Part shown: piece after piece, positions 1,027-18,066 of the stretch
Layout of the letters: each line of letters opens with the position of its first letter
How positions within the stretch are numbered: position 1 is the stretch's first letter
Source of the DNA: a virus
IMG/VR virus record: IMGVR_UViG_3300031851_000186
Location: 1-23,790 of that record
Reading direction: 5' to 3' (one strand)
DNA length: 23,790 nucleotides
The notes under the pieces: generated by a model
What the model was told of the DNA's origin: nothing
Database searches by the model: none
Seen by the model: the letters and a program-made list of their open reading frames with translations, nothing else
Program-made: the position numbers and the translations under genes

Positions 1027-1029
1027 AAT

Positions 1030-1734: not shown

Positions 1735-1735
1735 A

Positions 1736-1748
1736 TCCTTATTCCTTA
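1736..1748 (-). promoter_or_regulatory. Tandem ribosome binding site for the gpI-like gene
   Basis: On the minus strand this reads TAAGGAATAAGGA, two AAGGA motifs in a row. The proximal copy ends only one base before the ATG at 1734, which is too close to be useful; the distal copy is eight bases away, an ideal spacing. The same 13 bases occur before the tape measure gene. It supports the chosen start. Confidence 0.65.
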
Positions 1749-1755
1749 ATATAAT

Positions 1756-2142
1756 TTACACTACAACAGCCTTTTCTTTTTGAAAAAAAGAATTAATTTT
1801 GTTATGTCTTTTTTTTGACGGGTTGTAAAAGTTTATATTATTTGTTTTTAAACTGTAAACTATCATAGGTATATCCAGCTCGTCAGAGATGCCTAAATCT
1901 TCTTTTGAGAAAGTCTCGTCCCCCAAAACATGAGAATGAAAAATAGATATTATTTCGTAATTCTTGAAAGCGAATAGATATTCTTTATTTGATATTTCAA
2001 AATTAGTTTCTTGATTATCGGAAACATTTTCACATTCTACTGTTAAATATTTTTTATTTTTTTTTAAAATAAAACCGCAAGCTTCAAAAGGTTTCTTTCT
2101 TTCAGATATCAGCTTTATTTGATCGATATTTTTTTTTGTCAT
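1756..2142 (-). CDS. JAMM/MPN metallopeptidase, gpK N-terminal-like tail tip protein
   Basis: A 128-residue JAB1/MPN (JAMM) domain protein. The zinc motif is intact: His69-x-His71-x7-Ser79-x2-Asp82, with a likely catalytic Glu20 in the FEACGF segment typical of bacterial and phage JAMM proteins. Position between gpL-like and gpI-like genes is that of lambda gpK, whose N-terminal half is a JAMM domain and whose C-terminal half is an NlpC/P60 peptidoglycan peptidase. Here the protein stops after the JAMM domain, so no cell-wall hydrolase half is present. Catalytic residues being intact suggests real peptidase activity, possibly processing of tail proteins; this is inference. The ATG at 2142-2140 shares its A with the TAA of the gpL-like gene (TAATG), and is followed by a run of nine adenines. 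The family call is firm; the substrate is unknown. Confidence 0.88.
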   Translation of the reverse strand: MTKKNIDQIKLISERKKPFEACGFILKKNKKYLTVECENVSDNQETNFEISNKEYLFAFKNYEIISIFHSHVLGDETFSKEDLGISDELDIPMIVYSLKTNNINFYNPSKKRHNKINSFFQKEKAVVV

Positions 2143-3053
2143 TAAAAAATTCTACTACCTGGGAAACCTCCAAAAGGAATACCTTCCCCCCAGGAGGTTG
2201 GAAACCTTAATTTACACCCAGTTAAAGTTTTTGAGCAAGCATCTGTTACCCACTTTTTAGTATTGACCGAGGGTTTTGTTTCTGTAGTTGACGCGTGATC
2301 CTCTGTGCATATATATACAACATTCCTAGTGCCATTGCCCTCTTGTGTAACTAGATAGACCACATCTTGCTTAACATAGTTTTGACCTTCTTGCCATTTT
2401 CCTTGTGGTGTTAAGGAAGTTTTATCAAATTTAACATTATTGTAATCCGCACAAGGGTTGCCGTTATAACCACAATTTTTTCCCCTATATTTCCATGTGC
2501 AATAGTTGTTTATAATTTGCCTTCTTGGCAAGGTTGCACCTTCTAAATCTAAAGCATTTGACAGTTCAAATTCAACAAAATATTTATTCTCTTCAATTTT
2601 TTGATTTATATACCAAATATCAGGTCTTAATGTAGAAGTTGGATCTGGATTAACTCCAGCCTGAGACCAATAATCCCTTTCGTTATCGTAGTCTAGGAAA
2701 TTTTCTTTATCAAGAAATCTTAAGAAAGTTCTTTTTCTTACCACTTTAGCTTTAAGCATATCATCTTTTCCTATTATGTATCTAGATAAAAACCCCGAAA
2801 AATTTATTATTTTTATCTTTGGCCTCTGAAGTCCTCCGTCAGACCTAGTACTGAAATCGGAACCTTCGTGCGGTATATAAAAATACTCTTTACTATCAAA
2901 GAATAAGGAATAGAACATATTATTAACTCCTCCATGAAACCTTATAACTTCATCAGTATTTGCTATTTGAGATATTTCCCAAAAAGTAACCATTAAACTT
3001 TTACTATTTGCAAAAATTTCTTGATTTATGCTTTGTGTTTTTTTGAAAGACAT
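2142..3053 (-). CDS. gpL-like minor tail protein with Fe-S cysteines and an inserted domain
   Basis: A 303-residue protein of the lambda minor tail protein L family. The N-terminal 170 residues form the beta-rich part (K-x-x-N-F-S-G-F-L-S-R-Y, EFELSNALDLEGATLPRR). The C-terminal cysteine block matches gpL: Cys185-x8-Cys194 in the CTWKYRGKNCGYNG segment and Cys273-x6-Cys280 in CSKTLTGC. In lambda gpL the C-terminal cysteines hold a [4Fe-4S] cluster needed for tail-tip assembly, so a cluster is likely here. Between the two cysteine pairs there are 78 residues, far more than the roughly two dozen I recall in lambda. The extra piece (about 216-270) has a W-x-x-G-x-x-Y-x-x-x-D-V-V-Y ... V-Y-x-C ... 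P ... W pattern like a small carbohydrate-binding CBM5/12 module. A 36-base gap separates it from the gpM-like gene, and no strong ribosome binding site is seen. Confidence 0.85.
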   Translation of the reverse strand: MSFKKTQSINQEIFANSKSLMVTFWEISQIANTDEVIRFHGGVNNMFYSLFFDSKEYFYIPHEGSDFSTRSDGGLQRPKIKIINFSGFLSRYIIGKDDMLKAKVVRKRTFLRFLDKENFLDYDNERDYWSQAGVNPDPTSTLRPDIWYINQKIEENKYFVEFELSNALDLEGATLPRRQIINNYCTWKYRGKNCGYNGNPCADYNNVKFDKTSLTPQGKWQEGQNYVKQDVVYLVTQEGNGTRNVVYICTEDHASTTETKPSVNTKKWVTDACSKTLTGCKLRFPTSWGEGIPFGGFPGSRIF

Positions 3054-3089
3054 GCTTTGTTATAATAAATTGTTATTAGTTATTTTCGA

Positions 3090-4061
3090 TTAATATCCCC
3101 AATTATATCTTCTTCTGATATAATCTTCTTCTATTCTTACTGTTAAGTCGTTTGAGTTTTTATATAAATACGTATGCTCAATATTAACACAGAAAAAGTT
3201 TAATGTTTTTTCTTCTGGTTTTTTTAGGGTGAATGTGAATGTTTCATGCCCTTGTTTTGAAAAAAAGAATGATAATAGTTTTAATAATATTTCATCAGTA
3301 ATTCCGTTGTAGCTTAATTCTAAATTTGTTACCGACCTATTTACTCCACCCTTATCGTCAAAAGCTCTTGAACTTGCAAAATTAAACCTTGTTAAATGAA
3401 GGGGCTCGTCCCTCGTTATGGCATAAGAAGGCTCTATGTCTAAATGATATTTAGAAGAGTATTCATCTATTATATCTTTTTTGTGTTGCGGCATACTGTT
3501 TATTTTTAATAAATTTTTAACAGAAAACTGTGAATAATCTTGATTTATAAAATTTAAACTAATGTTATTATGATCTATGTATTGATGCTCTATATCTATG
3601 TTATTACAAGAAAATTCTTGAGAAAAATACGGCTCAATAGAATATAAAGATTTGTATGAATTTTGTTGGGAAAGTCCTGCATTAGCAGTTGGTTGAAATA
3701 TAAATTTTTGCCCACCTTCTTTAGATTTTATATAATTTATAATATTTTCTGATTCTAAATCCCCCCTGCTTGAGAAATTCAAATTAAGACTAATAGCTAT
3801 CCTATTTAAGACGCCGCCTTGATTTGAGTTTGTGTAATTATCTCCGAACTCCTGCATGTTAGAATAAAAACCAACAGATACCGAAGAGCCATACGAAGGT
3901 ATGAAATTAAAAGGATCTTCGTATTCAAAATTTTTCAACACATTATCGACCTTAGAGCCCGTAACGAATTCTTTATATGTATTATAATTTGCAGGGCTAG
4001 CGTTTGTGGGTTCGCTATAAAAATCTTTTTCTAGATTCCAAAATTTACCGCTATTAAACAT
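3090..4061 (-). CDS. gpM-like distal tail protein, apparently a tandem duplication
   Basis: A 323-residue protein in the gpM slot. A longer reading back to 4151 is possible, but the ATG at 4061-4059 overlaps the upstream TAA as TAATG and has GGAGAG nine bases ahead, so I use this start. Lambda gpM is about 110 residues. Here two gpM-like halves can be seen. Half one (about 88-171) has RIAISLNLNFSSRGD, NYIKSKEGGQKFIFQP and FSCNNIDIEHQY. Half two (about 243-310) has VTNLELSYNGITDE, FFFSKQGHETFTFTLKKP and FFCVNIEHTY. Both share the order beta strand, helix, K-x-G-x-x-x-F-x-F, then F-x-C-x-x-I-x-x-x-Y. In lambda, gpM forms the ring joining tube to tip; a fused dimer would make that ring from three subunits. 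Very AT-rich: 12 of 60 bases are G or C at 3541-3600. Confidence 0.7.
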   Translation of the reverse strand: MFNSGKFWNLEKDFYSEPTNASPANYNTYKEFVTGSKVDNVLKNFEYEDPFNFIPSYGSSVSVGFYSNMQEFGDNYTNSNQGGVLNRIAISLNLNFSSRGDLESENIINYIKSKEGGQKFIFQPTANAGLSQQNSYKSLYSIEPYFSQEFSCNNIDIEHQYIDHNNISLNFINQDYSQFSVKNLLKINSMPQHKKDIIDEYSSKYHLDIEPSYAITRDEPLHLTRFNFASSRAFDDKGGVNRSVTNLELSYNGITDEILLKLLSFFFSKQGHETFTFTLKKPEEKTLNFFCVNIEHTYLYKNSNDLTVRIEEDYIRRRYNWGY

Positions 4062-4822
4062 TATCTTAAGCTCTCCATAACTTCCACCGACCCAGCTAGT
4101 AAACCATTTGATGAGATAGATAAATTTTGAGAATTTATTATTCCTTTGCACTTTAAGGTTTGACCTCTTGCTGCATAATCTATATTTCTTGGTGATACTG
4201 TTATTTCACCGAAATCTCTACCTGAAAAATTTATAACAGAACCAATGTTTTCTCCTCCTACGGACATCTTTCTTCTCACGGTTCCATATCTCACATCTTC
4301 AGGAAACTCTGAACCTATTACATAATTAGGTGTTCTTTCGCACTCAACATCATAGTTTATTGTTTGAGGGAAATCTATTCCAATACTATTTTGGTTGAAG
4401 TTTAATAATTCTGTATAAGCTCCATTAGGCAGCCCAGTAGATGCTCCCCCAAACGATCCAGTCTGTGTTAACCCCCTGTACCCGCTATATATAGAAAAGC
4501 TAGCGTTAAACTCAACAGGTTTATAGGCTTCTATTTTTATGGAATAATTGGATAGATATGCTCCAGAAAATTCTATACCACAAAACCTGCCAGAGCACGA
4601 AAAATCTCCAGTTAGATTTCCTATAAAATCTTCTTTTCCTGTTATGTAATAATTAAAATCAACAGAAGCTGAAAGTGGAGATGATGCGGCATAATACCTC
4701 AACTCTCCACCGTAAACTCTTTCTTCCGTTGAATTAGATGAAGCCGAAAGCCTAGCGCTTTTTGCAAATATTTTTTGTTGATTGATTTCAACTTCACATT
4801 CTTGATGTCTTATGTATTTCAT
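4061..4822 (-). CDS. Tail-tube-like protein, second paralogue after the tape measure
   Basis: A 253-residue beta-rich protein without an obvious enzymatic motif. Two blocks are shared with the protein just upstream (4819-5649) and the major tube protein. These are GAYLSNYSIKIEA ... ASFSIYSGYRG (about 87-117) and ERTPNYVIGSEFP ... VRRKMSV (about 162-186), whose counterparts are DHSPVYKIGSIFP and SRSPIDRIGTRFAF. I infer a tube-fold ring protein stacked between the tube end and the gpM-like ring, comparable in principle to the extra rings in T5-type tail tips. It starts at an ATGA overlap with the upstream gene and ends in a TAATG overlap with the gpM-like gene, so expression is probably coupled. 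It could instead be an assembly-only protein. Confidence 0.6.
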   Translation of the reverse strand: MKYIRHQECEVEINQQKIFAKSARLSASSNSTEERVYGGELRYYAASSPLSASVDFNYYITGKEDFIGNLTGDFSCSGRFCGIEFSGAYLSNYSIKIEAYKPVEFNASFSIYSGYRGLTQTGSFGGASTGLPNGAYTELLNFNQNSIGIDFPQTINYDVECERTPNYVIGSEFPEDVRYGTVRRKMSVGGENIGSVINFSGRDFGEITVSPRNIDYAARGQTLKCKGIINSQNLSISSNGLLAGSVEVMESLR

Positions 4823-5649
4823 CTGTATATTATACTTGGCTTATGTCTTGAAACTGTAGAGTAATTTAACTTTACCTTAGTATTGTTATCTGCATCTGTT
4901 GAAAATTGTTCTGATAAAAGGTGAGCATCATTGAAATTGTATTCTATTTGTCGGTCTTGGCTACATTGATCCCTTAAAATAACTTTAATATCTTCGAAAT
5001 GTATTCCTGTCTTCATGTAATCATATACGGATCTAGTTTGATAATCATCAACCTCTATTTCTATAGAAAAATTTTGTCTAATAGGAGTTCCTAGAACTAC
5101 CTCACACGGAAAAATAGACCCTATTTTATAAACAGGACTATGATCTAAGTTCATAGAAAAAGAAAAACTTAAAACCCTATTAGTTTCTCTGCCATCAAAA
5201 TCAATACTTATTCCACTGCTTGTTGGGGTAAAAAGCTCTCTTTGATTGACTGGGTTTTTTTGTTTAACAACAAATGGTCCGACCTCTCCATATGCAGATA
5301 TTGATACTGTTGACTGGGGTAAACTATCTACAGAAAACGAACATTCATAAGAGTTTATATATCCGCTTTGAAAATTTATTTCTTGAGAATTAAATTCGAC
5401 CCCTCCGTCAAAACCTTCTTCCATTAAAAGAAGTTCTGTTATAGGTTCATCGCTAGACATCATAACTCTCTGGAAGGAGAAATTACCTACTCCAGGAGCA
5501 TTCTGTATTAAGTCAGCTGGGCCTACATATCCTAAAAAATTATTTTCTTCTGCTGGTATTGAGTAACTGGCATCCAAAGAAGAGACTCCTGACATTTGCA
5601 GACCATTTATGTAAAAAGATTGTTCTGCATTATGAACAAATCCCTTCAT
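4819..5649 (-). CDS. Tail-tube-like protein, first paralogue after the tape measure
   Basis: A 276-residue beta-rich protein whose ATG (5649-5647) directly abuts the tape measure stop (TAGATG), with GAGG three bases ahead. Block one (about 97-124, YINSYECSFSVDSLPQSTVS then ISAYGEVG) matches the major tube protein's FLSDYTIEASVGSIPTASAT then IELYNAK. Block two (about 162-198, FSFSMNLDHSPVYKIGSIFP and then GTPIRQNFSIEIEV) matches the tube protein's FSLSLPLSRSPIDRIGTRFA and LPVVASMSVSALL. An earlier stretch at 29-61 (SYSIPAEENNFLGYVGPADL) may be another copy of the same half-domain. I infer a structural ring protein near the distal end of the tube. The role is by analogy and position; no catalytic motif is seen. 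Confidence 0.62.
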   Translation of the reverse strand: MKGFVHNAEQSFYINGLQMSGVSSLDASYSIPAEENNFLGYVGPADLIQNAPGVGNFSFQRVMMSSDEPITELLLMEEGFDGGVEFNSQEINFQSGYINSYECSFSVDSLPQSTVSISAYGEVGPFVVKQKNPVNQRELFTPTSSGISIDFDGRETNRVLSFSFSMNLDHSPVYKIGSIFPCEVVLGTPIRQNFSIEIEVDDYQTRSVYDYMKTGIHFEDIKVILRDQCSQDRQIEYNFNDAHLLSEQFSTDADNNTKVKLNYSTVSRHKPSIIYR

Positions 5650-8600
5650 CTACCTCAACGATCCCCCTACCCTTTTCTCTTTTCCTATGATTTCTACTAC
5701 AGCATTTTTTACTTTACTTGCAAACTCTTTTGTGTTCAATGGGTTGCTGGCTGTAGTTGTAGTGCTTCCATTGCCCGAAACATTTATGGAAATATTCACG
5801 TCCCCATGAGTTACGGTGCTTTGAGATTGATTAGTAGATCCTCCTGATGAACCCAAAGAACCATCATTTATACTTTTCATCATTGAGGATCCGTATGTTT
5901 TTACTGCAGATGGATTCATTACATATTCTCCTCCTGTAAGTAACGAAGGCACTCCACCCCCTTTATTTCTTCTCAATTCCACCTTGTTAGCATCTAGAGA
6001 TCCTCCTTGGTTATTCTGCCACATTGTTCTTGCTGTGACTACAGGTCCTGCTACCTGTCCGTTCTGGTCAGGCTTAGTCAACATGTTTTGGTAGAATTTT
6101 TGCACACTACTTCTGTCTGACGGAGATTCGAATTTATCTGTTAAACTTCCTCCTTTAACACTAGTTGTGCCTTTCGTAGCTAAATCTTTTGCGGTTTTTT
6201 TATCAAAACGTTTTTGACCAAAAGAAGATTGTTTATATTTGTCTTTTGCGAAATCAATACCTTTGCTCAATAGAGCCCCTCCGATTATTCCGTAAACAAG
6301 ACCTAATAGAGCATTTTTTTCTGCTTTTTTCCTTCTTTCCTTATTTTTCCCGCGCATTTCTTCTTGTCTTTTTGTTGACAAGTCTTCGTTGAATTGAGTC
6401 TCTTGATCTCTATAGAATTCTTGTATTTTTCTATCATTAGCCATTGCATAACCAGTTAATCCACGGTTAATTCCCACTTCTCCTTTTTTAACTTTGTATC
6501 TAGTTACATTCCCGTCTTTATTCTCTTCTGTAAATTCTTCTCTTTCAGCAGCCCTAGGAGCTCCTATAGCTAAGTTTACCCCTCCTCCATTCTTATATCC
6601 AGTCAAGCTTCCACTATTTAATCTTTCCAGGAAGTTGACTCCGTATTTATCAACAGATGACTTTTTGATAACGTATTCACCTCCCATTAGCATTGCAGGG
6701 ACATCATCCTTGACCCCACTACCTCCACTAACCATACCTCCGCTATTTCCTTCGACTCGATCCAAGCCAGTAACAGAGCCAATCGCGCCAACCACCCTAC
6801 TCGCAGCACTTTCAAGAAATGCTCTTTGTATCATTTGCAAGAAAGATATTCCTATTGCCGATAATTTTCCTTCTAAATCGTCTGCTCCACTAAGGGCGGC
6901 TTGCATAGCATCAACCATTCCGTTCTTCATGGCAAATGGCATGTCTTGACCCAGTCTTGTATATATACCTTCAGCAGAATTTTCTACTCCAGCAAATCCG
7001 CTTTGTAGACCGTTCCCTAGATTTGTTTTAATTTCATTAACGACTCCGCCTTCTCCTCTTGGCGTCGATCTCTGCATAGCAAGAGCAAGAAGTTGAGCGT
7101 TTTTATTAAGCGTTTTTAGTTGAGATTCAAGGCCCGCAATATTCGCGTCTGCTTTTTTTATCGCTTCCTTGTCTCCCGAATCAACAAGTTCTGTTCTGTT
7201 AAATCTCGCCGTGGTTAGGCTGGCTGCTAAATCAGCTTCCTGAGTGCTCATTTGTGCGAACCTATCCCTTTGACCTTGAGTTCCTATTGTTTGAGACTCC
7301 AAAGCTATTCTAGCTTCTGCTTTTTGTAAATTGGTTGCTGTCGGGTCTCCAGATATTATCTCAAATTCTTTTTGTCTTTGAATTTGACCAGTTGCACCCC
7401 TCAATGCTGAGCTAGCTGATTGAGCATTAACATCGAGATTTGTTAAAGCATTTATTTCCGAAAATGAACCTTTGCTATAATCAAAAAATTTCAATGTTTT
7501 ACTAAAATTCTCAACAGCCATTTTTGCTTCGCGCAAATTAAATCTTCTTTCCATCTCCTTAATACCTCGATTCATTTGCTCTGATATTTCTTTCAAAGAG
7601 TTTGCTTTTTCTCTTAAAATGCCTTTCGGATCATTATTCCCAGCAATCGCTACAGCTTGATTAATTAAGTCTAGGGATTCATTTATACCTTCCGCTTTAT
7701 CTACGGAATTTAACATCATATTAGTTAATCCAAGGTCAATGTTTTCCAGACTTACAACTTGACCTTTTAGTTTTTGAGCTATATCATTTTTAGATGCCCC
7801 TTGCCGCGCCTCACTTCTTGCGCTTACTGCCTTTCCTTGCTCATCCTTTAATGATAATAATTGAGATTCAAGTGTTTTTTGTTCTTTCTCTGCTCCAGAT
7901 AAACCTGTTTCCTGTTTTTCTATTCTTAAGGATGATTTCAGATTTTCTAAATATTCCCCCAACAATTGCACACTTCCTTTTCCTGCTCCAGTTGCGGGGT
8001 CAAGCACTTGCCCAGATTTTCTTTGTTCGCTCGACTCAAATGGGCGAAGGTAACCATTTTTATCAAAAAGAAGATCAGCTCTTCCAGTATCTTTAGCTAT
8101 TTGATCTGCATACTTTTCAGCGAATTCTTGCTGAGCATTAAACATTTCATCATCAAAAAAGAAACCTGCTCCAGAATGAGTCCCAGAAGAACCAGATTTA
8201 CCACTATTTGCAACAGCGTTTAGGCGGAGAATGTGCTTCTCCACGGGCTCTAATCTGGCCTTTGAAAAATCTAAATCTGCTCTTTTTTTCTTTACTTCAT
8301 TCTTCTTACTGGTTAATTTTTCTTGAAGTGTATCTATAGATTTAGTCCTTGCTTTTATATCAGATAAACCATTTCCCGCAAGAGCATTTGCAACAGTTGC
8401 ACCTCCTTTGTTATTGTTCACAATTACAGTTGCTCCATTGCCAGCCCCAGAAGGCGAACTGGCAGGTGATCCAGGAGAGCTTTGTGCGGTAGAGGTTTTT
8501 GGGCCTCCACTTTCAGATGCTGCATTATCTAGTATTGGAGAAATAGAGTCTTTAAGATTGTTTAATGCATCTATTAAGTTTTTTTCAGACATTAATCTTT

Positions 8601-11600
8601 CTGCTTCTTTTTTAAATGTCTCAAGATTTTCCGCCTTCTGAATTTTCAATTCTTCCTGAAATATTTTCTTTCTTAATCCTGTTTGCCTAGCAGCTTCAGA
8701 TTCATCATCTCGTGAACCCCTAAACCTTTCATTGGTTAGAGTCTTGAAATTGCTTACCTTGCCTGAGCTGATTCCTTTTTGTTTTATTAATGCTGTATCT
8801 CTTTCAATGTTTCTAGTTCTCAATCGTGCTTGATATAGTTCAAGCTCTTCTTGTATTTTGGATTGTATTCTATTTTGTGCTATTTGAATGCTAGCGCTTT
8901 TTCTCATTGCTGTTATTTGAGCTTCCATCAATTTCTTTTGCCTAGCTCTGTCGTCTAGTAGCTCTTCTGCTGCTTTAGCATCTTCTTTATTAAATTGCGC
9001 TAAGTAATCATATGAAACTCCTCCGCCTTGACCGATTACTGAATCTTCAAAATTTACCCGTCGGGTCGTACTTGAGTCAGGGTTTCTAGTGGAAACTGAG
9101 CTGGCTAAATCAATCTTTTTTAATGCATTGGATATATCGTCATCAGAGGTTACTCCTAAAAGCATACCGAGCCTACTTCTGGATTCGTCTTTCTTCTCTG
9201 CATCCAATGCATTAAATGAGCTAAATAAAGGAGATGTTCGAACTCCGCCTATAGTATTGAATGCCATACCGCGCATTCTATCAACTCGATCCCCATTTGT
9301 TGGATCTTCTATCCCAACAGCTCCAGCGAGTTGGTTGATTTGATCCCTAGTAAAACTTTGATCTTTTATTGTTCCTCTGAAAGCTCTAGAAGCAATGGAA
9401 TCTTCAGCAATACCAATCCCTCTTTCTTCTACCGCACCTATTAAATCTTGCTTTTGTCTAGGAGTGACGGATTTTAAGTTCATACTACTGGAGTTTAATT
9501 TTCTGAGAAAATCTATGTCTGCCTGACCCGAAAATTCACTCATTTTAAATCCTATTTCTTTTTCAAGCAGACGTCCTTGCTGGTTAGACATAAACTCAGA
9601 AGAACGGCTTGGAGACATGAATTGAGACAGAAATTGAGTATTAGAATTTTCAGCTTGAAGATCAGAAGAGTTTTCTATTTTTTGAACTTCAAGTTTTAAT
9701 GTCATTCTTGACAAAGCTAATTTTAATTTTTTATCTAGGTTGAACAATGCATTAGATGCACTCTCAGTTGCTTTTCTAACATTATTAAAGTCTCTTACCG
9801 CCCCCTCTGCCTCTTTAGCGATTTCCTCTATCCCTACTTCACCCTCTTTGAATGCAGCTACCATGGCATTCATTGATGATTCGGTAAGAACTCCAGCTTG
9901 AACTAACTTGTCAAACTGCATGAGTTCGTCCATACCCATAGATTGTGCCCCCCTGAGTTGAGTCTCAGCGGTCATTGATTCAGCCTGACGCCCACCATAC
10001 GCACCAGCTGCTGCTCCAAGAGCAGTCAGAACTAAGCCAGCAGGGAGACCAACACCAGTAAAAGCAGCGAGCGCCCCCGCCGTCATAAGCCCTGCCCCAA
10101 TCCCTCCTGCAAGAGTTCCAGTGCTTGTCATATCCTGCCTACCTTCGGCCCTGGTCCTGAGATCATTCATTTTTTCAGTGCTCAACATTTGCCCAGACAT
10201 TTTTCGAGAGTCTACATTTTTTCTTATATCATTTAATAAACGAAGAGAGTCATCTTCATCAACATCTCCATTCCTAATCCCCTGTGCTATAATTGAACCC
10301 ATTGCAACACCAGCATTTCTGGAGTTTTTATTTTTAATGGCCATTCCGAAATTTTGTGCGCTTGTGGCTACGGTCATTTGATCCTGTAAATCTTTTTGTA
10401 AGGCAGCCATCGCATCGTCATCTCCAGCCGCTAAAGATAATTTGGAAAGAATATCCTTGTCGGTAATGCCAGATAAGGTTCTGTTTACCATAGCATCAAG
10501 CTTAGCAATTTGACTTTTATCTCCTTTTTCAAAAGCTGATTTTCTTGCGTTTTGTAGGTTTTGTATATTTTGTGTGGCTTGAACATTTTGGCCTATTACT
10601 GCAATTTCTTTTTCCCTCATTCTTATTTGCTCATCAATAGTTAAAGTGGCTTTCTTCATAGAGGCAAAGAATCCCCCCATAGCACCAACCACCATTCCTG
10701 CTGGTCCAAATAAAGCTCCCATACCAGCCCCCATAAGAACACTAGAGGCTATGTCCCCCCCTCTGTCATTTACATCAAACGATCCTGTAGTTTTATTAAA
10801 TGTAGCTCGCTCCGCTCTATCTTGCTTATTTGACACCATGCCAGCAATCATCGGGGCAATAAAAGACATACCTAACCCCATAGTTCCCCCAAATTTACCA
10901 AGACCTTGGGTTCCAAAATTTTTAGCGGCCCTTGTAATACCTCCAGACAACCTCCCTGCCGCACGAGCAGTTCCAGTCCCCAAACCAGAACCTATAATAC
11001 CAGCTCCAGATCGACCAGACATAAATGACCCTGTTAATTGATTGCCGAAAATTTTACTAGACAAATTGGCAAGCTTGCCTCCGCCAGTTCCTCCTCTTAG
11101 TCTATCTCTTGCCGCTGTTTGTGCAGCTTTAGTATTATCACTTTTAATAGCATTCTTAGCATTATCCTTTGATGTCTGTACCAGCTGCTGTAATGCTTTC
11201 GTTGATTGAGTGTCTTTACCAATTCCTATGGCTCCTGAATTCAAACTTCTTTCTAACCTTTTAGCGGTTTTTTTGTCTCCATTTTCTAGAGCTTTTTGGA
11301 ATTGACCTAATTTTTTTGTAAATTGATTAGCTGCGAGAGAAGATGTGCCAGCTTGACCACCAACTAACTGCCTGAATTGACCAGATTGCAGCCCAGCTGA
11401 AGCAAGAGCTTTATTTGAAGACATTACTCCTTGTTGTTGAAGGTAGTTTTTAAATTCGTTTTGCCCAGTTTTACCCATCATAGCCATTATGCTATTAGCT
11501 TCCCTCTGACCTCCAGAAAAATTTGGATCACGTGCCCTTAAAAAATCTTGCGCAAAAAACTTAGTCGCTGTGCTTTTGTTGAAACCACCTGTTCCTTGAA

Positions 11601-14600
11601 ATTTCTCTCTAGCTCGAATTTCTCCTGAATTTTGTTTCAGAGCTCGCTCTATCATCTTAGCGGACTCCCTGGGTCCACTCATTGCATTCCTGGCTCCCCT
11701 CTCCATTGAGCTGTCTATCTTTCTTAATGCATTTAACGTTTCTGTGTCTCCAGATTTTCTAGCGACACCTTGTTGGAACAATAACGCATCCTCAAATTTA
11801 CCCCCAGGAGCATTCATTAAGTTCTTAGCTAAACCTCCCAGAGGTCCTCCACTGGCAGCTATATTCTTTAACTCGTCTTTTCTAAACATTTGTCTAGCGA
11901 ATTGGTTTCTCTCGACACCATCTTTGGAGCTTAAGCCTTTGGTTTGAGCTTTTTGCCTGATGTTTGCCTCTTTAATTAAGTTGGCATTTTTTCCATACTC
12001 TTTAGACAAACCCGCCAAGAATTTTCTACCCCGATCTGTAGAAGCTGTCATCTTGTCTATAGCAGAACTAGCCTTAAAGAAGGAATCCTGCATAGCCTTT
12101 AATCCGTCTTGTCTAATAGCCTGCCTTGTGTCTTGTCGCATTGACATTACATCTGCACCAGTGAGGCTTCTAACTGGCGAAGCATAATTAGGAACACCGC
12201 TTTTTTGTTTTGGGTTCAATCCTCCATGCAAAATTCTGGCTTTAGCCAAAGAACCACCTTCTTGTTCTTGGTTGACTACAGCAAGACCAGGGTTGGTTGA
12301 GCTTTTTAAAGAAGGAGCTTGTACTACTCTGGGAGTTAACCCAAAAGACGCCTCTCTAGATACTGCATCTTTTACGGCTCCTGAATACTGTGGGTTTTTT
12401 GATAATACTTTAGAGGCTCCTCCCGAAAAAAGACCAGCATAATTAGGAACATGACCTTGGTTTGATATTTTATATGTAAAATTCTCCCCAGCCCACATTC
12501 CATCTTTTTCACCGATATCTTTGTTGAATTGAAGGTCTTCAGCTTTTTCTACTTTAAATTTCTTCCCCTTAGCTATGCTATCAACAACTCTCATTGCAGA
12601 AATAGATGTGCCCATGTCTCCATACAACCCAGTGTAGCCATTTTTCTTAGAGTATTGAGCCATATGTTCATACAAATCTTTTCCGTAACCTCTTCCCCTT
12701 AAAGAAGGATTAGCCTCTGAAGTCATTATTACCTGCAATGCTCTTTTGCTTGGGTCTTTAAAGTCGGGGATATCTATAGCATGAGATGTTGCAAAATTTT
12801 TACCACCCACACTGGACTCAAAAAATACCTGCTTAGGAGGTCCGTCCGTATCATCTCTCGACCCATCATCCCTAACCTTGGTTTTATATTTAGCTGGAGT
12901 TCTTGCAAAATTAGGAATAAGACCTTTGCTAGCCATATCTGGATCGACTTTTAAATGCTTTCCTTGAGATACAACGCTTTGAATTTTATCGAGATGCAGC
13001 CTTCTGTATCCCCCAGCCCCTTTACCAGCTGAAGCTGCATGCACTACCCTGGACTTTCCTAGGGGCGAATTCTTATCAAAATCCGCCCAAGACGAAAATC
13101 CCTTTGGAGCACTCGCTCCTTTTTTGTGAGCATGGACTCCATGCCTTGCTCCTGTAAATGTTAGATCTTGAGCACTTCCTGATTTAGGTTGGTATTTTAT
13201 GGATTTAAATAAACCATTTGTTATGATTTTATCCAGTTCCGACATCCCTATCGTACCATCAAACTTATCGGAATGTATTTTCGCTTTAGGCTTAGATATA
13301 GATTTTATCTTAGAAGCATTTATTCTTAATGCAAAATTAGGGATTTTTCCAAAACTTCGAAATTTTCTTAGTTTTAAAAGTTCTTTCAAAGTAGGTGTGC
13401 TTGAAATCGAGGGAGAGCCACCAAACCTTTCTTTCGCCATTCTCAACAAATCCTTAAGTGTATAGTTTTTGTATATAGAAGGTAGTTCCTGGATTTTTTT
13501 TGGTAATCCATCGTTTTTATTTAATGACAATAATTCTTCTAATGTAGGAAGGGCGTTTAATTTTGGATTTTTCTTTTCTGTTATTGGCGACTTCTTTGAT
13601 AAATTAGTAAAGTTCTTTCCAAAAAGTTTTTTATGACGCTCTTTTCTCTCTCTCATTAACGCATCAATATCGTCACTTTTCTGGAACCTTCCAGCCATCA
13701 TTTTTTCCGCTTGACGTATAGTCTTTTTATCATCCTTAAGATTATCCTCAAAATCTTCAAAAGATCGATTGTTTATTAGGTTTTTAGCTCCAGGACTATT
13801 TTTTAAAATTTTACTTAATTCTCCCTGCTGGGCGCTCCCAGAAGCAGAAGCTTGTGTGTTTAAGGCTGCCTGGCTTTCAAGATGTCTAGCTTCTACTCTT
13901 TTTTGAATTTCGGATTGTTTTGCGATGGAAGCGTCGCTCCCTCTGAACCTCCCGCTAGTTTCCCCAAAATAGCCAGGCCCAGTAAGCCCTGGCTTACTTG
14001 TAAATCCACTACCACTCCTATACAGTTGAGCCAGAACTCCAGCCATTGGCCTAGCTTTAACTATACCTCTTTCTGGATCATGCCCAAGTTTTAAAACATC
14101 TCTAGATAACACTTCCATCTGAGTGTTGTTTATTCTATTTTTACTTTTTCTTATAGAGCCTATTTGTTTTTTTATTGTATTAGAAACAGAAGTTCTTCCA
14201 ACCATATCCTGAACTACTTGAGACCTTTCTTTATGATCCATTAATCTAACAAAAGAACCAGGAACATTTCCCTGTATCCTGTCGGTATTCCCAGTTAAAT
14301 AGTTTAATATATCCCTAGGCGAAGCCTGCCTTAAAACAGAAGCTACATCTGCTTTAGGAGGAGCCCCTACTCCTGATTTAACCATTTCCCAATCTTGACT
14401 TCCCAGTAAACCATTGGCAGTCATAGATTTCTTAACTTCACTTAAACCCTTATTATCTAAATATTTTAAAGCTTCAACAGTTTTTTGTGGGCTAGCTAGT
14501 AGATCATTAAGTTTTGTTGGATCTTTAAATGTTTCATATTTAGCTATTGTAGCTTCATTGTAATTAGCTGGCTGAGCTCTCTGAAGTCCAGATAGGTATT

Positions 14601-17600
14601 CCGTACCAATTGGGGTATTTGAAAGTGCATAGTTAGGAATCAAACCTCCATTAAAAAGGTCCTTCAAGCTCCAGGTTAATTCCAGATCAGCGGCTTCCTT
14701 TAAATCTATTTTCTTTTTGGCTAATTCGTCTCTTATATCATCATGAAACCTCCCCATATACGTAGATCCATCTTTCGTGACAACAGCCGCTCTGTAATCT
14801 CCCCCGAACCTTACCGAATCAATCTTATTACCCTTCATATCGAAAAGTTTTGACATTCCAGGTGTTTCGTATGGTTTGGCTGCAGAATCCAAAGCTCCCC
14901 TTTTCAATATAAAACTTTTTAATTTTGATGCTTGTCTTGATTGAGACGGATTCATCTTGTTTCTCGCATGCATAACCATTTGTTCTGGCCTAAACATCAT
15001 ATTAGGAATAAATCCATCTGACATACCGAGTTCATCCAATATTGATTTCGGAACAAAAGATGTTTCGTTCCCATATCTAGGATTAGCTTTCATTCTTCCA
15101 ATAGCTATTCTTTGCAAGTCTCCAGGAAGATCTGAAACTTTTAAATTAGTCCTAGTCTTTCCTTTGTTTTTTAACTCTTGCCCTACTTTATTTGATTTTT
15201 CTTGTTTCCTCATCCTAAGAATATCATCTAATAATGTAGAACCTAATACAGAGACTGGGATAATTCCACCAAGCACGCCAGATATTAAATCTATATGACT
15301 TGTTGGATTCTGAAATATATCTAAAGCTCCTTTACCTAGCTTACCTCCCATTTCAAGAGCTTTGGGTCCGTATTTTTGAATAGCATTCATTATTTCATCT
15401 TTAAATGCAAATCCTGCTCCTCCACCGCCACCATATAAAGTTGTGCGAGGAAAGTTTTTCATAAAATCAAAACCTTTTCCTAAAAGATGCTTACCTGTTT
15501 CAAAAATATTGGTATATGCATTATATCCTCCTTTAGCGGCTCCAAGTATACCCTTTCCTAAGAAATCAGTGCCTTTCATGTATGCACCATACCCACCTTT
15601 TATCAAAGAGCCTATATCTTTAAAAGGTGTGCTTATTAATTTTCCTGCGGCACCGAGGCCCTTACCCATAAAGTCTCTGTCTGATGTTTTGGGCTTCTGC
15701 CTTCTAAAAAGATTACCAAGTCCGTAATTCGGAACATGCCCGTGGCTCATAGCTCCGCCCATAAACGGATCCCTTTCAGGCCCCAGCTCTCTTCCTGGAG
15801 GCAACTTATGGGGGCTACTTAATCCCCTTGACTGAGCTCTTTTCATATTTAAATCAAAAAGCATTCCGTCAATATACCCGCTCCCTCTAGACCAGCCAGA
15901 TGGAACATTATTGCCGAAACCAGCTAAAGAGTCTTCGACTTGTTTTATAAATGTCGAATCTTTTTTAGATAGAAATTTTTTGTAAACAAGTGTTCTTATA
16001 GAATCTAGTTCTGTGCTCGTAGCTAAAGCGGGCTTTGATGAGTGCCATGAATCTTTTAAAACACGGCCTCCTCCAGTATCAAGATTTAGAGCTCTTCTTT
16101 TCCCGTGAACCAAAGCTGATGCTATATTATGAGGGGTAGGTTTGTATGATGAGATTTTACGTGCTCTATTGTAATTTGGAACATAACCTCTGTTTGCATA
16201 AGGATCCATTCCGTGAACATTGGAAAATGCTTTTCTGTATTTTCTTCCAGCTCTACTTGACTCAGGCGGCATAATTGCTGGCTGTGATAACCCACTAAAC
16301 TTCTTAACAGTTTCAGCTGAATTAAAAATAACTCGACCTTCTCCTTTAAGATTCATGCTTTTAACCGCTCCAGCCGTATAACCTCCTTGCCTAGCTCCTT
16401 TTTTCTCACTAGAACGCTCCGAGCTTGATACATAATTGGGAATATGACCATCGCTCTTTCTCCTCAAGTCCCCGCCAAACCCAGCACGAGATATTCCTGG
16501 GGACATAGCTCTAGCTGCTGCTGCTATTTTTGCCTGCTCTCTTGATTGTTGCTGTAATATATTTAAAATAGTTTTTTCTTGAGCTGCTCTGTTTCCTTCT
16601 TGAGAAAGTATTCTTTTTTGTAAAGCACTATTTTCATTTAATACAGTTACTATAGAAGCTTGTATTTGTTTTTGTTTTTCAGCCGCCGTAACAACCCCTA
16701 AAAGCTCTTTTCCGCTACCAGCAAGAAAAGAAAATGTTTTTACAAATAATTTCGACAACACAGCTAATGTTAAAAATAAACCTGGGCCAGTTAATACATT
16801 CCCTATTCCCGCTATAACACCTTTTGCGAAATCTGACCCCGCTGACTCTCCTTGTTTCTGACCCAAGAAATCTGATATTCCACTAACTTGATCTTTTATA
16901 AAAGTTAAATAATCACGTATTTGGTCTGCGAAAGCTATTTCACCAAGAGCTCCAGCAAGTTCTTTTAGGCTAGTCGCTGCTTGAGAGGATAACGCGGCTA
17001 GTGACCTATTTAAAATTTCATTCTTTTTGTATGCTTCATCTGTTGCGCTGGCTGATATTTGAGTAGCTCTACTTAATATACTATTTTCAGAACTTAAATC
17101 TTTTATCGCAGCTTTTAATATGTTTATTTGAAACACTCCACCAACTTGTTCTGCTACTGCGGCTTTCGTTGTGTCTGCCAATTTATCGTAAGTTTTAGCT
17201 AAGTTTTGTAAAACATTAATTGCTGGTAATGTATTTCCAGATATATCTCTTACCGCTATACCTAACTCTTCTAATCTTGTTATAGTGCTAGACCTTTGAA
17301 CTCTTGTGAAAATTGTTTTAAAACTATTACCTATTACCTTTCCCCCTCTAGCAGTCATTTGTTGAGCCGCCGTAACCGCACCCAAAAGTTCATCAAAACT
17401 TACTCCAGCATCGCTCGCAACAGCTCCAGCTCTAGAAACTGCATCTATTAAATCTTCCGTACTTACCGCAAACTGAACGTCAACAGCGGCCATTTTGCTT
17501 AAAATTTGAGTGGAGTCTAATCCAACATTATTAAAAGTATTTAATGCTGCAGTCAAACCGCTTACTGCGGCTGCGGCATCCAAACCTGTTAATCGTGTTA

Positions 17601-18066
17601 ATATTAATGCGTCATTCGCTCTTTTTAATGTTTCTTCGACTCCCAGACCCTGTCTTGCGAGTTCTGTTGCCGCTGTAGCTACCGTGTCAAAGCTTTGTGC
17701 TGTATTCTTTGCTACTTTAAATAAACTTTTACCAAAATCTTCTAATTGGGAATTGGTTAACCCCATGACGACATTTATTTCAGTTAGCTTTTGTTCTACC
17801 TGTATAGTCGTTGTTACTAGAGAGGCAAAAGCCTTTTGGACCGCCTGTATAATACCTACAGAAGCTCCAAACGCTAAAACACGAGCATTGGACGCTTCTA
17901 GTGATTTATTAAATTCACTAACGGATCCAGTTATCTTACCTAAGGGTCTAGAAAAATTCCTATCATTTATCGACAGATTAAGCCCTCCCCTAGAACTTAC
18001 GTTTCTAACGGCTCTTTTTATGGACTTTTCTAGCCCTGTCTGAACTGTTGGTATCTTGAGAGGCAT
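5650..18066 (-). CDS. Giant tape measure protein (TP901-type) with an embedded multi-domain insert
   Basis: A 4,138-residue tape measure protein, which sets tail length and lines the tail lumen before DNA ejection. Residues about 90-325 are the TP901-1 type tape measure core (EINVVMGLTNSQLEDFGKSL, TAATELARQG, a GVSFDELLGAVTAAQQMTAR block, SFKTIFTR). A hydrophobic stretch follows at 413-446. Residues 540-1961 hold the motif-bounded insert described separately. After this come long Gln/Lys/Glu-rich helical regions, and two Gly/Ala-zipper membrane-like segments near 2438-2470 and 2653-2692. Two copies of a typical tape measure C-terminal motif lie near 3789-3821 and 4039-4071, and the tail end KEKRVGGSLR is common in this family. 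For comparison lambda gpH is 853 residues for a tail of about 135 nm; scaling gives roughly 620 nm for the full length, or about 400 nm without the insert. The start is supported by a tandem Shine-Dalgarno. Plus-strand open frames inside it are shadows. Confidence 0.95.
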   Translation of the reverse strand: MPLKIPTVQTGLEKSIKRAVRNVSSRGGLNLSINDRNFSRPLGKITGSVSEFNKSLEASNARVLAFGASVGIIQAVQKAFASLVTTTIQVEQKLTEINVVMGLTNSQLEDFGKSLFKVAKNTAQSFDTVATAATELARQGLGVEETLKRANDALILTRLTGLDAAAAVSGLTAALNTFNNVGLDSTQILSKMAAVDVQFAVSTEDLIDAVSRAGAVASDAGVSFDELLGAVTAAQQMTARGGKVIGNSFKTIFTRVQRSSTITRLEELGIAVRDISGNTLPAINVLQNLAKTYDKLADTTKAAVAEQVGGVFQINILKAAIKDLSSENSILSRATQISASATDEAYKKNEILNRSLAALSSQAATSLKELAGALGEIAFADQIRDYLTFIKDQVSGISDFLGQKQGESAGSDFAKGVIAGIGNVLTGPGLFLTLAVLSKLFVKTFSFLAGSGKELLGVVTAAEKQKQIQASIVTVLNENSALQKRILSQEGNRAAQEKTILNILQQQSREQAKIAAAARAMSPGISRAGFGGDLRRKSDGHIPNYVSSSERSSEKKGARQGGYTAGAVKSMNLKGEGRVIFNSAETVKKFSGLSQPAIMPPESSRAGRKYRKAFSNVHGMDPYANRGYVPNYNRARKISSYKPTPHNIASALVHGKRRALNLDTGGGRVLKDSWHSSKPALATSTELDSIRTLVYKKFLSKKDSTFIKQVEDSLAGFGNNVPSGWSRGSGYIDGMLFDLNMKRAQSRGLSSPHKLPPGRELGPERDPFMGGAMSHGHVPNYGLGNLFRRQKPKTSDRDFMGKGLGAAGKLISTPFKDIGSLIKGGYGAYMKGTDFLGKGILGAAKGGYNAYTNIFETGKHLLGKGFDFMKNFPRTTLYGGGGGAGFAFKDEIMNAIQKYGPKALEMGGKLGKGALDIFQNPTSHIDLISGVLGGIIPVSVLGSTLLDDILRMRKQEKSNKVGQELKNKGKTRTNLKVSDLPGDLQRIAIGRMKANPRYGNETSFVPKSILDELGMSDGFIPNMMFRPEQMVMHARNKMNPSQSRQASKLKSFILKRGALDSAAKPYETPGMSKLFDMKGNKIDSVRFGGDYRAAVVTKDGSTYMGRFHDDIRDELAKKKIDLKEAADLELTWSLKDLFNGGLIPNYALSNTPIGTEYLSGLQRAQPANYNEATIAKYETFKDPTKLNDLLASPQKTVEALKYLDNKGLSEVKKSMTANGLLGSQDWEMVKSGVGAPPKADVASVLRQASPRDILNYLTGNTDRIQGNVPGSFVRLMDHKERSQVVQDMVGRTSVSNTIKKQIGSIRKSKNRINNTQMEVLSRDVLKLGHDPERGIVKARPMAGVLAQLYRSGSGFTSKPGLTGPGYFGETSGRFRGSDASIAKQSEIQKRVEARHLESQAALNTQASASGSAQQGELSKILKNSPGAKNLINNRSFEDFEDNLKDDKKTIRQAEKMMAGRFQKSDDIDALMRERKERHKKLFGKNFTNLSKKSPITEKKNPKLNALPTLEELLSLNKNDGLPKKIQELPSIYKNYTLKDLLRMAKERFGGSPSISSTPTLKELLKLRKFRSFGKIPNFALRINASKIKSISKPKAKIHSDKFDGTIGMSELDKIITNGLFKSIKYQPKSGSAQDLTFTGARHGVHAHKKGASAPKGFSSWADFDKNSPLGKSRVVHAASAGKGAGGYRRLHLDKIQSVVSQGKHLKVDPDMASKGLIPNFARTPAKYKTKVRDDGSRDDTDGPPKQVFFESSVGGKNFATSHAIDIPDFKDPSKRALQVIMTSEANPSLRGRGYGKDLYEHMAQYSKKNGYTGLYGDMGTSISAMRVVDSIAKGKKFKVEKAEDLQFNKDIGEKDGMWAGENFTYKISNQGHVPNYAGLFSGGASKVLSKNPQYSGAVKDAVSREASFGLTPRVVQAPSLKSSTNPGLAVVNQEQEGGSLAKARILHGGLNPKQKSGVPNYASPVRSLTGADVMSMRQDTRQAIRQDGLKAMQDSFFKASSAIDKMTASTDRGRKFLAGLSKEYGKNANLIKEANIRQKAQTKGLSSKDGVERNQFARQMFRKDELKNIAASGGPLGGLAKNLMNAPGGKFEDALLFQQGVARKSGDTETLNALRKIDSSMERGARNAMSGPRESAKMIERALKQNSGEIRAREKFQGTGGFNKSTATKFFAQDFLRARDPNFSGGQREANSIMAMMGKTGQNEFKNYLQQQGVMSSNKALASAGLQSGQFRQLVGGQAGTSSLAANQFTKKLGQFQKALENGDKKTAKRLERSLNSGAIGIGKDTQSTKALQQLVQTSKDNAKNAIKSDNTKAAQTAARDRLRGGTGGGKLANLSSKIFGNQLTGSFMSGRSGAGIIGSGLGTGTARAAGRLSGGITRAAKNFGTQGLGKFGGTMGLGMSFIAPMIAGMVSNKQDRAERATFNKTTGSFDVNDRGGDIASSVLMGAGMGALFGPAGMVVGAMGGFFASMKKATLTIDEQIRMREKEIAVIGQNVQATQNIQNLQNARKSAFEKGDKSQIAKLDAMVNRTLSGITDKDILSKLSLAAGDDDAMAALQKDLQDQMTVATSAQNFGMAIKNKNSRNAGVAMGSIIAQGIRNGDVDEDDSLRLLNDIRKNVDSRKMSGQMLSTEKMNDLRTRAEGRQDMTSTGTLAGGIGAGLMTAGALAAFTGVGLPAGLVLTALGAAAGAYGGRQAESMTAETQLRGAQSMGMDELMQFDKLVQAGVLTESSMNAMVAAFKEGEVGIEEIAKEAEGAVRDFNNVRKATESASNALFNLDKKLKLALSRMTLKLEVQKIENSSDLQAENSNTQFLSQFMSPSRSSEFMSNQQGRLLEKEIGFKMSEFSGQADIDFLRKLNSSSMNLKSVTPRQKQDLIGAVEERGIGIAEDSIASRAFRGTIKDQSFTRDQINQLAGAVGIEDPTNGDRVDRMRGMAFNTIGGVRTSPLFSSFNALDAEKKDESRSRLGMLLGVTSDDDISNALKKIDLASSVSTRNPDSSTTRRVNFEDSVIGQGGGVSYDYLAQFNKEDAKAAEELLDDRARQKKLMEAQITAMRKSASIQIAQNRIQSKIQEELELYQARLRTRNIERDTALIKQKGISSGKVSNFKTLTNERFRGSRDDESEAARQTGLRKKIFQEELKIQKAENLETFKKEAERLMSEKNLIDALNNLKDSISPILDNAASESGGPKTSTAQSSPGSPASSPSGAGNGATVIVNNNKGGATVANALAGNGLSDIKARTKSIDTLQEKLTSKKNEVKKKRADLDFSKARLEPVEKHILRLNAVANSGKSGSSGTHSGAGFFFDDEMFNAQQEFAEKYADQIAKDTGRADLLFDKNGYLRPFESSEQRKSGQVLDPATGAGKGSVQLLGEYLENLKSSLRIEKQETGLSGAEKEQKTLESQLLSLKDEQGKAVSARSEARQGASKNDIAQKLKGQVVSLENIDLGLTNMMLNSVDKAEGINESLDLINQAVAIAGNNDPKGILREKANSLKEISEQMNRGIKEMERRFNLREAKMAVENFSKTLKFFDYSKGSFSEINALTNLDVNAQSASSALRGATGQIQRQKEFEIISGDPTATNLQKAEARIALESQTIGTQGQRDRFAQMSTQEADLAASLTTARFNRTELVDSGDKEAIKKADANIAGLESQLKTLNKNAQLLALAMQRSTPRGEGGVVNEIKTNLGNGLQSGFAGVENSAEGIYTRLGQDMPFAMKNGMVDAMQAALSGADDLEGKLSAIGISFLQMIQRAFLESAASRVVGAIGSVTGLDRVEGNSGGMVSGGSGVKDDVPAMLMGGEYVIKKSSVDKYGVNFLERLNSGSLTGYKNGGGVNLAIGAPRAAEREEFTEENKDGNVTRYKVKKGEVGINRGLTGYAMANDRKIQEFYRDQETQFNEDLSTKRQEEMRGKNKERRKKAEKNALLGLVYGIIGGALLSKGIDFAKDKYKQSSFGQKRFDKKTAKDLATKGTTSVKGGSLTDKFESPSDRSSVQKFYQNMLTKPDQNGQVAGPVVTARTMWQNNQGGSLDANKVELRRNKGGGVPSLLTGGEYVMNPSAVKTYGSSMMKSINDGSLGSSGGSTNQSQSTVTHGDVNISINVSGNGSTTTTASNPLNTKEFASKVKNAVVEIIGKEKRVGGSLR
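5854..5952 (-). repeat. Tape measure C-terminal motif, copy 2
   Basis: Residues about 4039-4071, reading VPSLLTGGEYVMNPSAVKTY and ending in KSINDGSL. It aligns without gaps over 33 residues to copy 1, including VPxxLxGGEYV, the A/S-V-x-x-Y-G step and the final N-x-GSL. Confidence 0.75.
6604..6702 (-). repeat. Tape measure C-terminal motif, copy 1
   Basis: Residues about 3789-3821, following GGSGVKDD. It contains VPAMLMGGEYVIKKSSVDKY and ends in ERLNSGSL. The G-G-E-[YF]-V-[IL]-x-x-x-[AS]-V-x-x-Y-G pattern is common near the C-termini of phage tape measures. It is repeated 250 residues later. Confidence 0.75.
12463..12864 (-). other. GNAT acetyltransferase-like domain inside the tape measure
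   Basis: Between the seventh and eighth motifs (about residues 1735-1868) the sequence reads as a GNAT fold. A strand ALQVIMTSEA leads into the acetyl-CoA pyrophosphate loop and its helix: Arg1790-Gly-Arg-Gly-Tyr-Gly1795 followed by KDLYEHMAQYSKK, which fits the Q/R-x-x-G-x-G/A signature of motif A. Next come a GYTGLYGD strand and SAMRVVDSIAKGKKFKV, like the C-terminal GNAT strand and helix ending in a 'GFK'-type element. The loop residues needed for cofactor binding look intact. The substrate is unknown. If the domain is delivered with the tape measure during ejection it could modify a host target; that is inference. Confidence 0.65.
12925..13335 (-). other. Possible WYL-like domain inside the tape measure
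   Basis: Residues about 1578-1714, between the sixth and seventh motifs. A helix-like ELDKIITNG is followed by SIKYQPKSG (Tyr1625), then a strand-rich stretch with VVHAAS, and then YRRLHLDKIQSV (1687-1698). This order (I-x-Y strand, middle strands, then R-x-(F/L)-x-(L)-D-(K/R)-I) recalls WYL domains, which sense ligands or nucleic acids in bacterial regulators. The central W-Y-L residues themselves are not present, so this is a weak call; another small beta-barrel is equally possible. Confidence 0.3.

Follow-up and report, generated by a model that had tools for sequence, protein, structure and literature searches.

Introduction

Tape measure proteins (TMPs) are regarded as occupying the tail tube of the virion and as passing into the cell envelope while the DNA enters, and one of them, gp96 of Thermus phage P23-45, carries an N-terminal virion RNA polymerase that, in the hypothesis of its authors, works at an envelope pore formed by the TMP itself (PMC10770324, in the sections drawn on here). 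The subject of the present analysis is a giant TMP encoded in a 23,790-nucleotide stretch of viral DNA (IMG/VR record IMGVR_UViG_3300031851_000186, positions 1 to 23,790; this whole stretch is referred to as the window), in which a short recurring motif divides an internal region, the array, into segments that in the window and its relatives are exchangeable modules. Like gp96, it is a giant TMP; the gp96 enzyme is fused at the N-terminal side, and the available sections of the P23-45 report mention one RNA polymerase, a metallopeptidase and transmembrane domains, with neither a shuffled array nor a punctuating motif (PMC10770324). A polymerase fusion of the P23-45 type was rejected for the window protein, which has no DxDxD in its N-terminal part; its sole DxDxD, DVDED at residue 2601, lies outside both that part and the array.

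Polyvalent proteins of phages and conjugative elements are large single polypeptides that combine enzymatic domains of unrelated kinds (Iyer et al., 2017, PMC5512222), with ADP-ribosyltransferase (ART) and GNAT domains among them according to the excerpted text of PMC7824862, and they are thought to be injected. The window TMP may resemble them in its plan, with one recognised enzyme of its own. Zincin-like peptidases are the commonest, although not universal, domain type of polyvalent proteins, whereas their HExxH signature is present in none of the 92 array proteins of our set, some of which are truncated; the word 'tape' is absent from the polyvalent-protein text, and no shared punctuation motif is described in its excerpts (PMC5512222). 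Similarity also exists to Tme and Sle1, contractile injection system effectors in which a TMP-like protein, whose functional domain varies and can be an endonuclease, is loaded into a tail-like particle; these belong to bacterial injection systems and, in the portions of the reports used here, carry their functional domain at the C-terminus, unlike the internal, punctuated array of a phage (PMC11126660, PMC13277306). Shuffling of domains within a protein, as seen here, is known as domain mosaicism in phage proteins, and a large survey of it, as far as the cited parts extend, confirmed no genuine recent mosaicism in TMPs (PMC10684548); compared with that result, the window TMP family appears to be a genuine case.

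The polymerase fusion of P23-45 and the polyvalent proteins are the nearest precedents, each covering parts of the architecture only, and our searches of open-licence PMC papers revealed no description of the motif or of a motif-punctuated TMP array. The enzymes of classical TMPs are peptidoglycan hydrolases that serve entry, and classical TMPs with cell-wall-degrading domains have reportedly been recorded in an enterococcal survey; the present family shares with them the presence of enzyme domains in a TMP and differs in their nature, these being GNAT, SNase, cytidyltransferase-like and similar domains rather than peptidoglycan hydrolases.

A punctuated array within the tape measure protein

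The largest gene of the window is identified as a TMP gene because its product matches PhageMin_Tail (PF10145, E 3.7e-24 in Pfam) as well as several PHROG tape measure families, including PHROG 4211 at 1.9e-47. Eight copies of the strict motif G-x-[IV]-P-N-[YFM] are found in this protein, and the series is closed by a ninth copy, SGVPNY, that matches a looser pattern only (Table 1). All nine lie within residues 540-1961, and shuffling of the protein yields a mean of 0.0025 strict copies and a maximum of 1 (2,000 shuffles). The original prediction, made from the letters of the window and its open reading frames (ORFs), had described nine short motifs confined to this region at 12181-16449, and both the count and the coordinates are correct; the alanine that it had described as often following the motif stands directly after five of the nine copies and is missing after the others. 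The eight segments between the motifs, in the order A-F-H-I-C-B-E-D, share no significant similarity (best segment-segment match E 0.030 over 52 aa), again as predicted. A regular tape-measure repeat is excluded by this dissimilarity and by module lengths ranging from less than 100 to more than 500 aa.

In the related loci described below, the consensus of the motif is [AS]-x-G-[FYHL]-[IV]-P-N-[FY]-A (461 instances, duplicates included, the search pattern itself requiring G, P and N). The 83 motif-bearing ORFs of more than 900 aa in the fetched loci are all array-bearing TMPs and hold 413 copies, with six further copies in two truncated reads of one TMP (L012, L048), and none occurs in the 2,082 other stop-to-stop ORFs of 80-900 aa (some contigs having been fetched twice). 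Six TMPs of cultured phages with a related core, from among 91 phage records, have no strict copy and a single loose match. In two structure models, seven motif copies touch stretches with a predicted local distance difference test (pLDDT) score below 50, mostly between domains, and the copies at the starts of modules H and I fall within long low-confidence stretches.

Since the synonymous positions of the motif mostly vary about as much as the rest of the gene, the constraint on it would lie mostly at the level of the protein; judged from these sequence comparisons, the motif is mainly a protein-level signal and not an absolute requirement. A purely DNA-level recombination seam was rejected on the same pattern, even though the codons for V, I, P and A are somewhat biased, and a simple linker repeat was rejected because the motif is conserved too strongly for one and coincides with the edges of modules in TMPs. 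As a separate observation, the closing motif is loose in the window clade (SGVPNY in the window; TSAVPNY, TGEVPNF and TSMPNY in the counterparts of L004, L005 and L014), unlike most internal copies.

The sequence flanking the array had been described as a tape measure core before it, and helical and membrane-like regions after it. The core is as described, and hydrophobic peaks do follow the array (residues 2442-2470, 2651-2690 and 3919-3938); similar peaks are also present before it (63-81 and 416-450) and inside it (923-950, module H). The post-array region is likely the ruler and membrane part of the protein.

Exchange of modules between related phages

A search of IMG/VR with the TMP core gave 21 loci, with core identities of 74-100% in 19 and 44-47% in two; one locus, L002, has a core identical to that of the window and the same motif list. 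Splitting the proteins of the window and 14 relatives at the motif (seven of the 21 loci, L002, L010, L015, L017, L018, L019 and L020, being left out as duplicates or too short) produced 99 segments, which fell into 25 families, 13 having one member each. Among ten complete, non-duplicate arrays of the window clade there are nine distinct module orders, including, besides that of the window, A-E-C-B-K-D, A-B-E-C-K-D, A-C-B-E-D and A-C-B-K-D. The position of C varies, and both relative orders are seen for B/C, E/C and H/I. In L013 (11612-16753), where the array runs off the contig, J is found twice (95% identical) and B is found twice (56% identical), the B copies being 87% and 56% identical to that of the window. 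Different orders and numbers of the same segments in related phages were what the original prediction had looked to for evidence of a cargo array.

Arrays are also present beyond the window clade. A scan with module A revealed 204 IMG/VR stretches encoding a relative, of which 80 were fetched, and in the resulting 92 array-bearing loci, with some contigs fetched twice, the cluster of module A is present in 79 and that of module D in 84, and the remaining internal segments were sorted into 55 clusters, many of which hold one segment. Further IMG/VR scans retrieved 15 loci with module E, 16 with B, 7 with F and 5 with I, which by contig name are the known array contigs and four more (L105/L125, L117, L122/L142 and L136) whose TMPs also carry the motif. 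Neighbours were counted in 34 of the 92 loci, hand-picked as non-redundant: E has five kinds of neighbour on its left and four on its right, B six and six, F five on its right, and D nineteen on its left. When whole uncut arrays (14, hand-picked as non-redundant) were aligned with one another, 607 of 848 internal ends of high-scoring segment pairs (72%) lay no more than 10 residues from a motif centre, compared with 11% at random, where pairs were counted in both directions and are not independent.

Shuffling of this kind could be mimicked by chimeric metagenomic contigs, and the array-bearing loci are indeed all uncultivated contigs or bins, with no tblastn match in 50,697 phage records to the cargo region of the window, module A of L071 or module D of L089 (at E 0.01, 0.01 and 0.05). 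Such an assembly artefact is nevertheless extremely improbable, given that the breakpoints fall at the motif, that some arrays were recovered more than once, in separate contigs (L004 and L018; L014, L015 and L017), and that L146, which comes from a genome bin, shares its module order with L004. The open frames themselves are no evidence against an artefact, since the arrays were extracted as open frames.

The modules also differ from the rest of the protein in their inheritance, another point on which the cargo-array proposal had been staked. In approximately unbiased (AU) tests, the topology of the core is rejected for B (p 3e-5, 11 taxa), C (p 3e-54, 11 taxa) and E (p 1e-4, 8 taxa), mildly rejected for D (p 0.009, 9 taxa), and not rejected for A (p 0.079, 11 taxa) or for the post-array region (p 0.265, 8 taxa); the tree set comprised 11 taxa, with the first of the two B copies taken for L013, and the value for C is less clean in that its alignment includes a compound of F and C from L014. 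Pairwise identities correlate with those of the core at 0.92 for the post-array region, compared with 0.12 for B, 0.28 for C and 0.01 for E.

The difference is also illustrated by length, which was measured in 63 of 72 loci with A and D, namely the ones whose C-terminus is closed (L003 and L146 were left out as open-ended). Array length, counted from A to D, ranges over 592-1,331 residues within the window clade, with a coefficient of variation (CV) of 0.25 (n=8), and the remainder after the array covers 2,116-2,268 residues with a CV of 0.02 (n=8), the ranges being unchanged when duplicates are included (n=12). With a near-constant post-array length beside a variable array, the cargo can change without a change in the presumed ruler. 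Outside the clade, the CV is 0.43 for the array and 0.12 for the remainder (51 loci, near-duplicates included).

These comparisons bear on a structural explanation, in which the modules are spacer, chaperone-docking or neck-proximal tail domains that vary by co-evolution with tail or head proteins and are never delivered. TMPs are structural proteins, the bookends A and D are widely conserved, B and C are retained in all ten complete arrays, and H looks helical or disordered, all of which would suit such domains. The swapping of unrelated domains at the same place, an array length that varies where the rest hardly does within the clade, and the enzyme folds or active-site motifs of the modules fit it poorly, and we consider a purely structural array rather unlikely.

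Predicted functions of the modules

The claim that at least one segment looks like an enzyme is supported by module E. By sequence, its Pfam GNAT matches are weak and below the cut-off, and a PDB profile search gave weak acetyltransferase matches (best 0.33). By structure, the assignment is much clearer: the model of module E has ten-residue pLDDT means of 63-92, with 13 of 15 blocks at 80 or above, and finds 54 PDB matches at E <= 1e-3 (Foldseek value 5.6e-5), nearly all of those listed being GNAT, GNAT-containing or GNAT-related proteins. The VIA alignment has a Z of 10.7 and a root-mean-square deviation of 3.2 over 120 residues, and covered essentially model residues 149-299, that is, module E, with module B barely included. 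In the nine aligned members of the family, R76, G77, G79, Y80 and G81 of RG[RK]GYG are invariant (9/9), a sequence that fits the acetyl-CoA-binding motif (Q/R)-x-x-G-x-(G/A). Module E thus has a clear predicted GNAT acetyltransferase fold.

The predicted folding of the other segments is uneven. In the models, in addition to E, module B forms an alpha/beta domain and F, I and B are predicted to be at least partly folded, whereas H is mostly of low confidence; a PDB profile search with module B gave no matches. Not every segment need be cargo, A and D being conserved bookends and H being poorly defined.

Recognisable domains of other kinds are found in distant arrays, 16 of which, hand-picked in two sets, were scanned with Pfam. 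SNase in L089 (2.3e-5) and HIGH_NTase1_ass, a cytidyltransferase-associated region, in L097 (1.6e-7) are above the cut-off, one in each array, and nothing exceeded it in the ten arrays of the second set or in a further fifteen arrays; matches below it (PGDYG, TetR_C_43, TraF_2, RhoGAP and others) were not used. A PDB search with the L097 array gave a single weak prefoldin match, and NCBIfam on six arrays gave one weak SurE match far below its cut-off. As side observations, residues about 2144-2244 of the L007 TMP, in an array module, weakly match PF14083 PGDYG (0.0011, below the Pfam cut-off), and P-loop-like sequences, not confirmed by Pfam, were seen by eye in array modules of L073 and L097.

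Other arrays are minimal, with a single module of 243-327 residues, sometimes plus a second of about 100, and in many of these a nuclease-like module is the sole cargo. In module n7, E170, D189, D191, D218 and K220, in the pattern E...D-F-D...D-x-K, are invariant in 15 aligned of 19 members, and E, D and D/E-x-K presumably correspond to the PD-(D/E)XK nuclease signature, so that n7 is read as a PD-(D/E)XK-like nuclease on conserved residues only; n6 and n9 are candidate nucleases by eye and by a crude residue-order pattern. Module c16 is ART-like by its residues: R13, S78, E216 and E218 (R, S, E-x-E) are invariant in 4/4, which we assume to be the ART signature, and no Pfam ART match was obtained.

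A further alternative is that of selfish in-frame elements, in which nuclease modules would use the sequence encoding the motif as a homing site in TMP genes and take other domains along. Many minimal arrays have nothing but a nuclease-like module as cargo, as noted, the motif shows some codon bias, and homing endonuclease genes lie beside or between TMP genes in two cultured phages, Lactococcus phage AM1 and Bacillus phage Staley (L148:16795-17736, L150:7376-8098); a survey is also said to report nuclease genes at phage exchange boundaries. Homing is nonetheless very improbable, as the motif is conserved mainly as protein, the bookends are stable, and the window clade shuffles its modules without a recognised nuclease.

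Proposed role of the array

The explanation that we favour, and consider fairly probable, is that the TMP is carrier and ruler at once, with an exchangeable array of effector domains built into it. The array, with its conserved ends A and D, lies between the conserved N-terminal core and a region of constant length that would be the ruler and membrane part, and phages add, drop, rearrange and exchange its domains as cassettes whose edges fall at G-[FYHL]-[IV]-P-N-[FY]-A. We infer delivery into the host and a role of the motif in it: the array would ride with the TMP into the infected cell and be presented to the cytoplasm together with the DNA, where its domains would act at once, before phage gene expression, on host molecules. 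Their action would be acetylation in the window phage and nucleic-acid cleavage or ADP-ribosylation in relatives, probably directed against host defence or serving to redirect host machinery.

The role of the motif as a recognised site is the part of this explanation of which we are least sure. Release of the modules by cleavage at the motif would be the most economical role, and we give proteolytic release a chance somewhat short of even; a docking or handling site during assembly or ejection is less likely, as is a mere linker. Zincin self-processing was rejected on the absence of HExxH noted above.

Cleavage might instead take place in the producing cell, before or during assembly, with the modules acting late and never being injected. 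A conserved sequence that marks almost all boundaries and lies in linkers of low confidence does resemble a processing site. However, no protease was identified, none having been sought beyond HExxH, there is no evident gain in fusing enzymes that act late to a TMP, and P23-45, in the sections of the report cited, provides a case of a virion TMP that includes an enzyme (PMC10770324); we therefore regard early processing as distinctly unlikely. A bolder version of the carrier explanation, in which the TMP is a programmable polyprotein chassis and GxIPNFA a dedicated tag for processing or handling, by which a phage lineage could load interchangeable effectors into its tail at fixed copy number, with tail length unchanged and release at DNA entry, is put forward as a tentative and rather doubtful proposal.

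Several observations weigh against the carrier explanation. The original reading of the region as a cargo array stands as far as a modular, exchangeable array with some enzymes is concerned, and falls short in that only one of the eight window segments (E, GNAT) is a recognisable enzyme; the model of A-F-H-I has a mean pLDDT of 55.6 and no Foldseek match in the PDB at E <= 0.001, and, with B and C in all ten (10/10) complete clade arrays, part of the array is not optional. The nuclease reading of n7 relies on conserved residues, its PDB profile search having returned no nuclease and a weak miniGq match (0.0016) over other positions, and the crude pattern fits 21/21 n6, 12/19 n7 and 6/10 n9 modules. 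Outside the window clade, array and remainder lengths are negatively correlated (r -0.52, 51 loci) and the remainder is less constant. Nor is the motif uniform: in L014 (12239-13744) an F-like stretch of 118 aa runs straight into C without an intervening motif, and in five distant arrays (L058, L089, L095, L096, L099) the motif before A has decayed, with G-x-[IVL]-P kept and N-[FY] lost. Its codon use is not fully neutral, V being GTT in 26 of 33 copies compared with 44% overall, with milder shifts at I, P and A. No HExxH peptidase was found in the 92 array proteins, and the search for a processing protease extended no further than HExxH. The tail lumen may be too narrow for the folded domains of several TMP copies to lie next to one another, and the steps from packaging onward, including ejection and activity of the array, are inferred.

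If the carrier explanation is correct, a sizeable group of uncultivated phages uses one of its structural proteins also as a magazine of exchangeable effectors, and splitting TMPs at the motif offers a way to find early-acting phage effectors. It would also pose the concrete question of how folded enzymes pass through the tail tube. The chassis version, if true, would be the phage counterpart of cargo loading into injection systems.

Genomic context

Table 1. Positions of the TMP gene, its motifs and modules, and the neighbouring tail genes in the window.
Feature	Position	Strand	TMP residues	Remarks
TMP gene	5650..18066	minus		4,138 aa; PF10145 and PHROG TMP matches
N-terminal TMP core	16450..18066	minus	1-539	PhageMin_Tail at 117-310
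Motif 1, GHIPNY	16432..16449	minus	from 540
Motif 2, GYVPNY	16171..16188	minus	from 627
Motif 3, GHVPNY	15724..15741	minus	from 776
Motif 4, GFIPNM	14998..15015	minus	from 1018
Motif 5, GLIPNY	14629..14646	minus	from 1141
Motif 6, GKIPNF	13333..13350	minus	from 1573
Motif 7, GLIPNF	12907..12924	minus	from 1715
Motif 8, GHVPNY	12439..12456	minus	from 1871
Motif 9, SGVPNY	12184..12201	minus	1956-1961	Variant closing motif
Module A	16189..16449	minus	540-626	Conserved first bookend, opens with motif 1
Module F	15742..16188	minus	627-775	Partly confident helical domain
Module H	15016..15741	minus	776-1017	Hydrophobic, helical, mostly low confidence
Module I	14647..15015	minus	1018-1140	C-terminal part folded in model
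Module C	13351..14646	minus	1141-1572	Long, divergent
Module B	12925..13350	minus	1573-1714	Alpha/beta domain in model
Module E	12457..12924	minus	1715-1870	Predicted GNAT-type acetyltransferase domain, RGRGYG at 1790
Module D	12202..12456	minus	1871-1955	Conserved last bookend
Post-array TMP region	5653..12183	minus	1962-4138	Near-constant length in close relatives
Tail genes	1..5649	minus		Central tail fibre J, tail assembly and minor tail protein matches

The TMP gene adjoins genes with PHROG matches to central tail fibre J, tail assembly and minor tail proteins, and the minor tail L-type protein has relatives named minor tail protein L in cultured phages; judged from this gene content, the window phage is long-tailed, with lambda-like tail-tip genes. 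Within the same group, the gene at 4061-4822 has no PHROG match and that at 4819-5649 a weak virion-protein match. On the other side of the TMP gene lies a 567-aa protein (18215-19918) without a PHROG match at 0.01, which may be a tail tube protein. The contig of L146 was binned to Candidatus Neomarinimicrobiota, a weak hint as to the host. At the end of the window (22413-23790), two plus-strand ORFs face the minus-strand tail genes.

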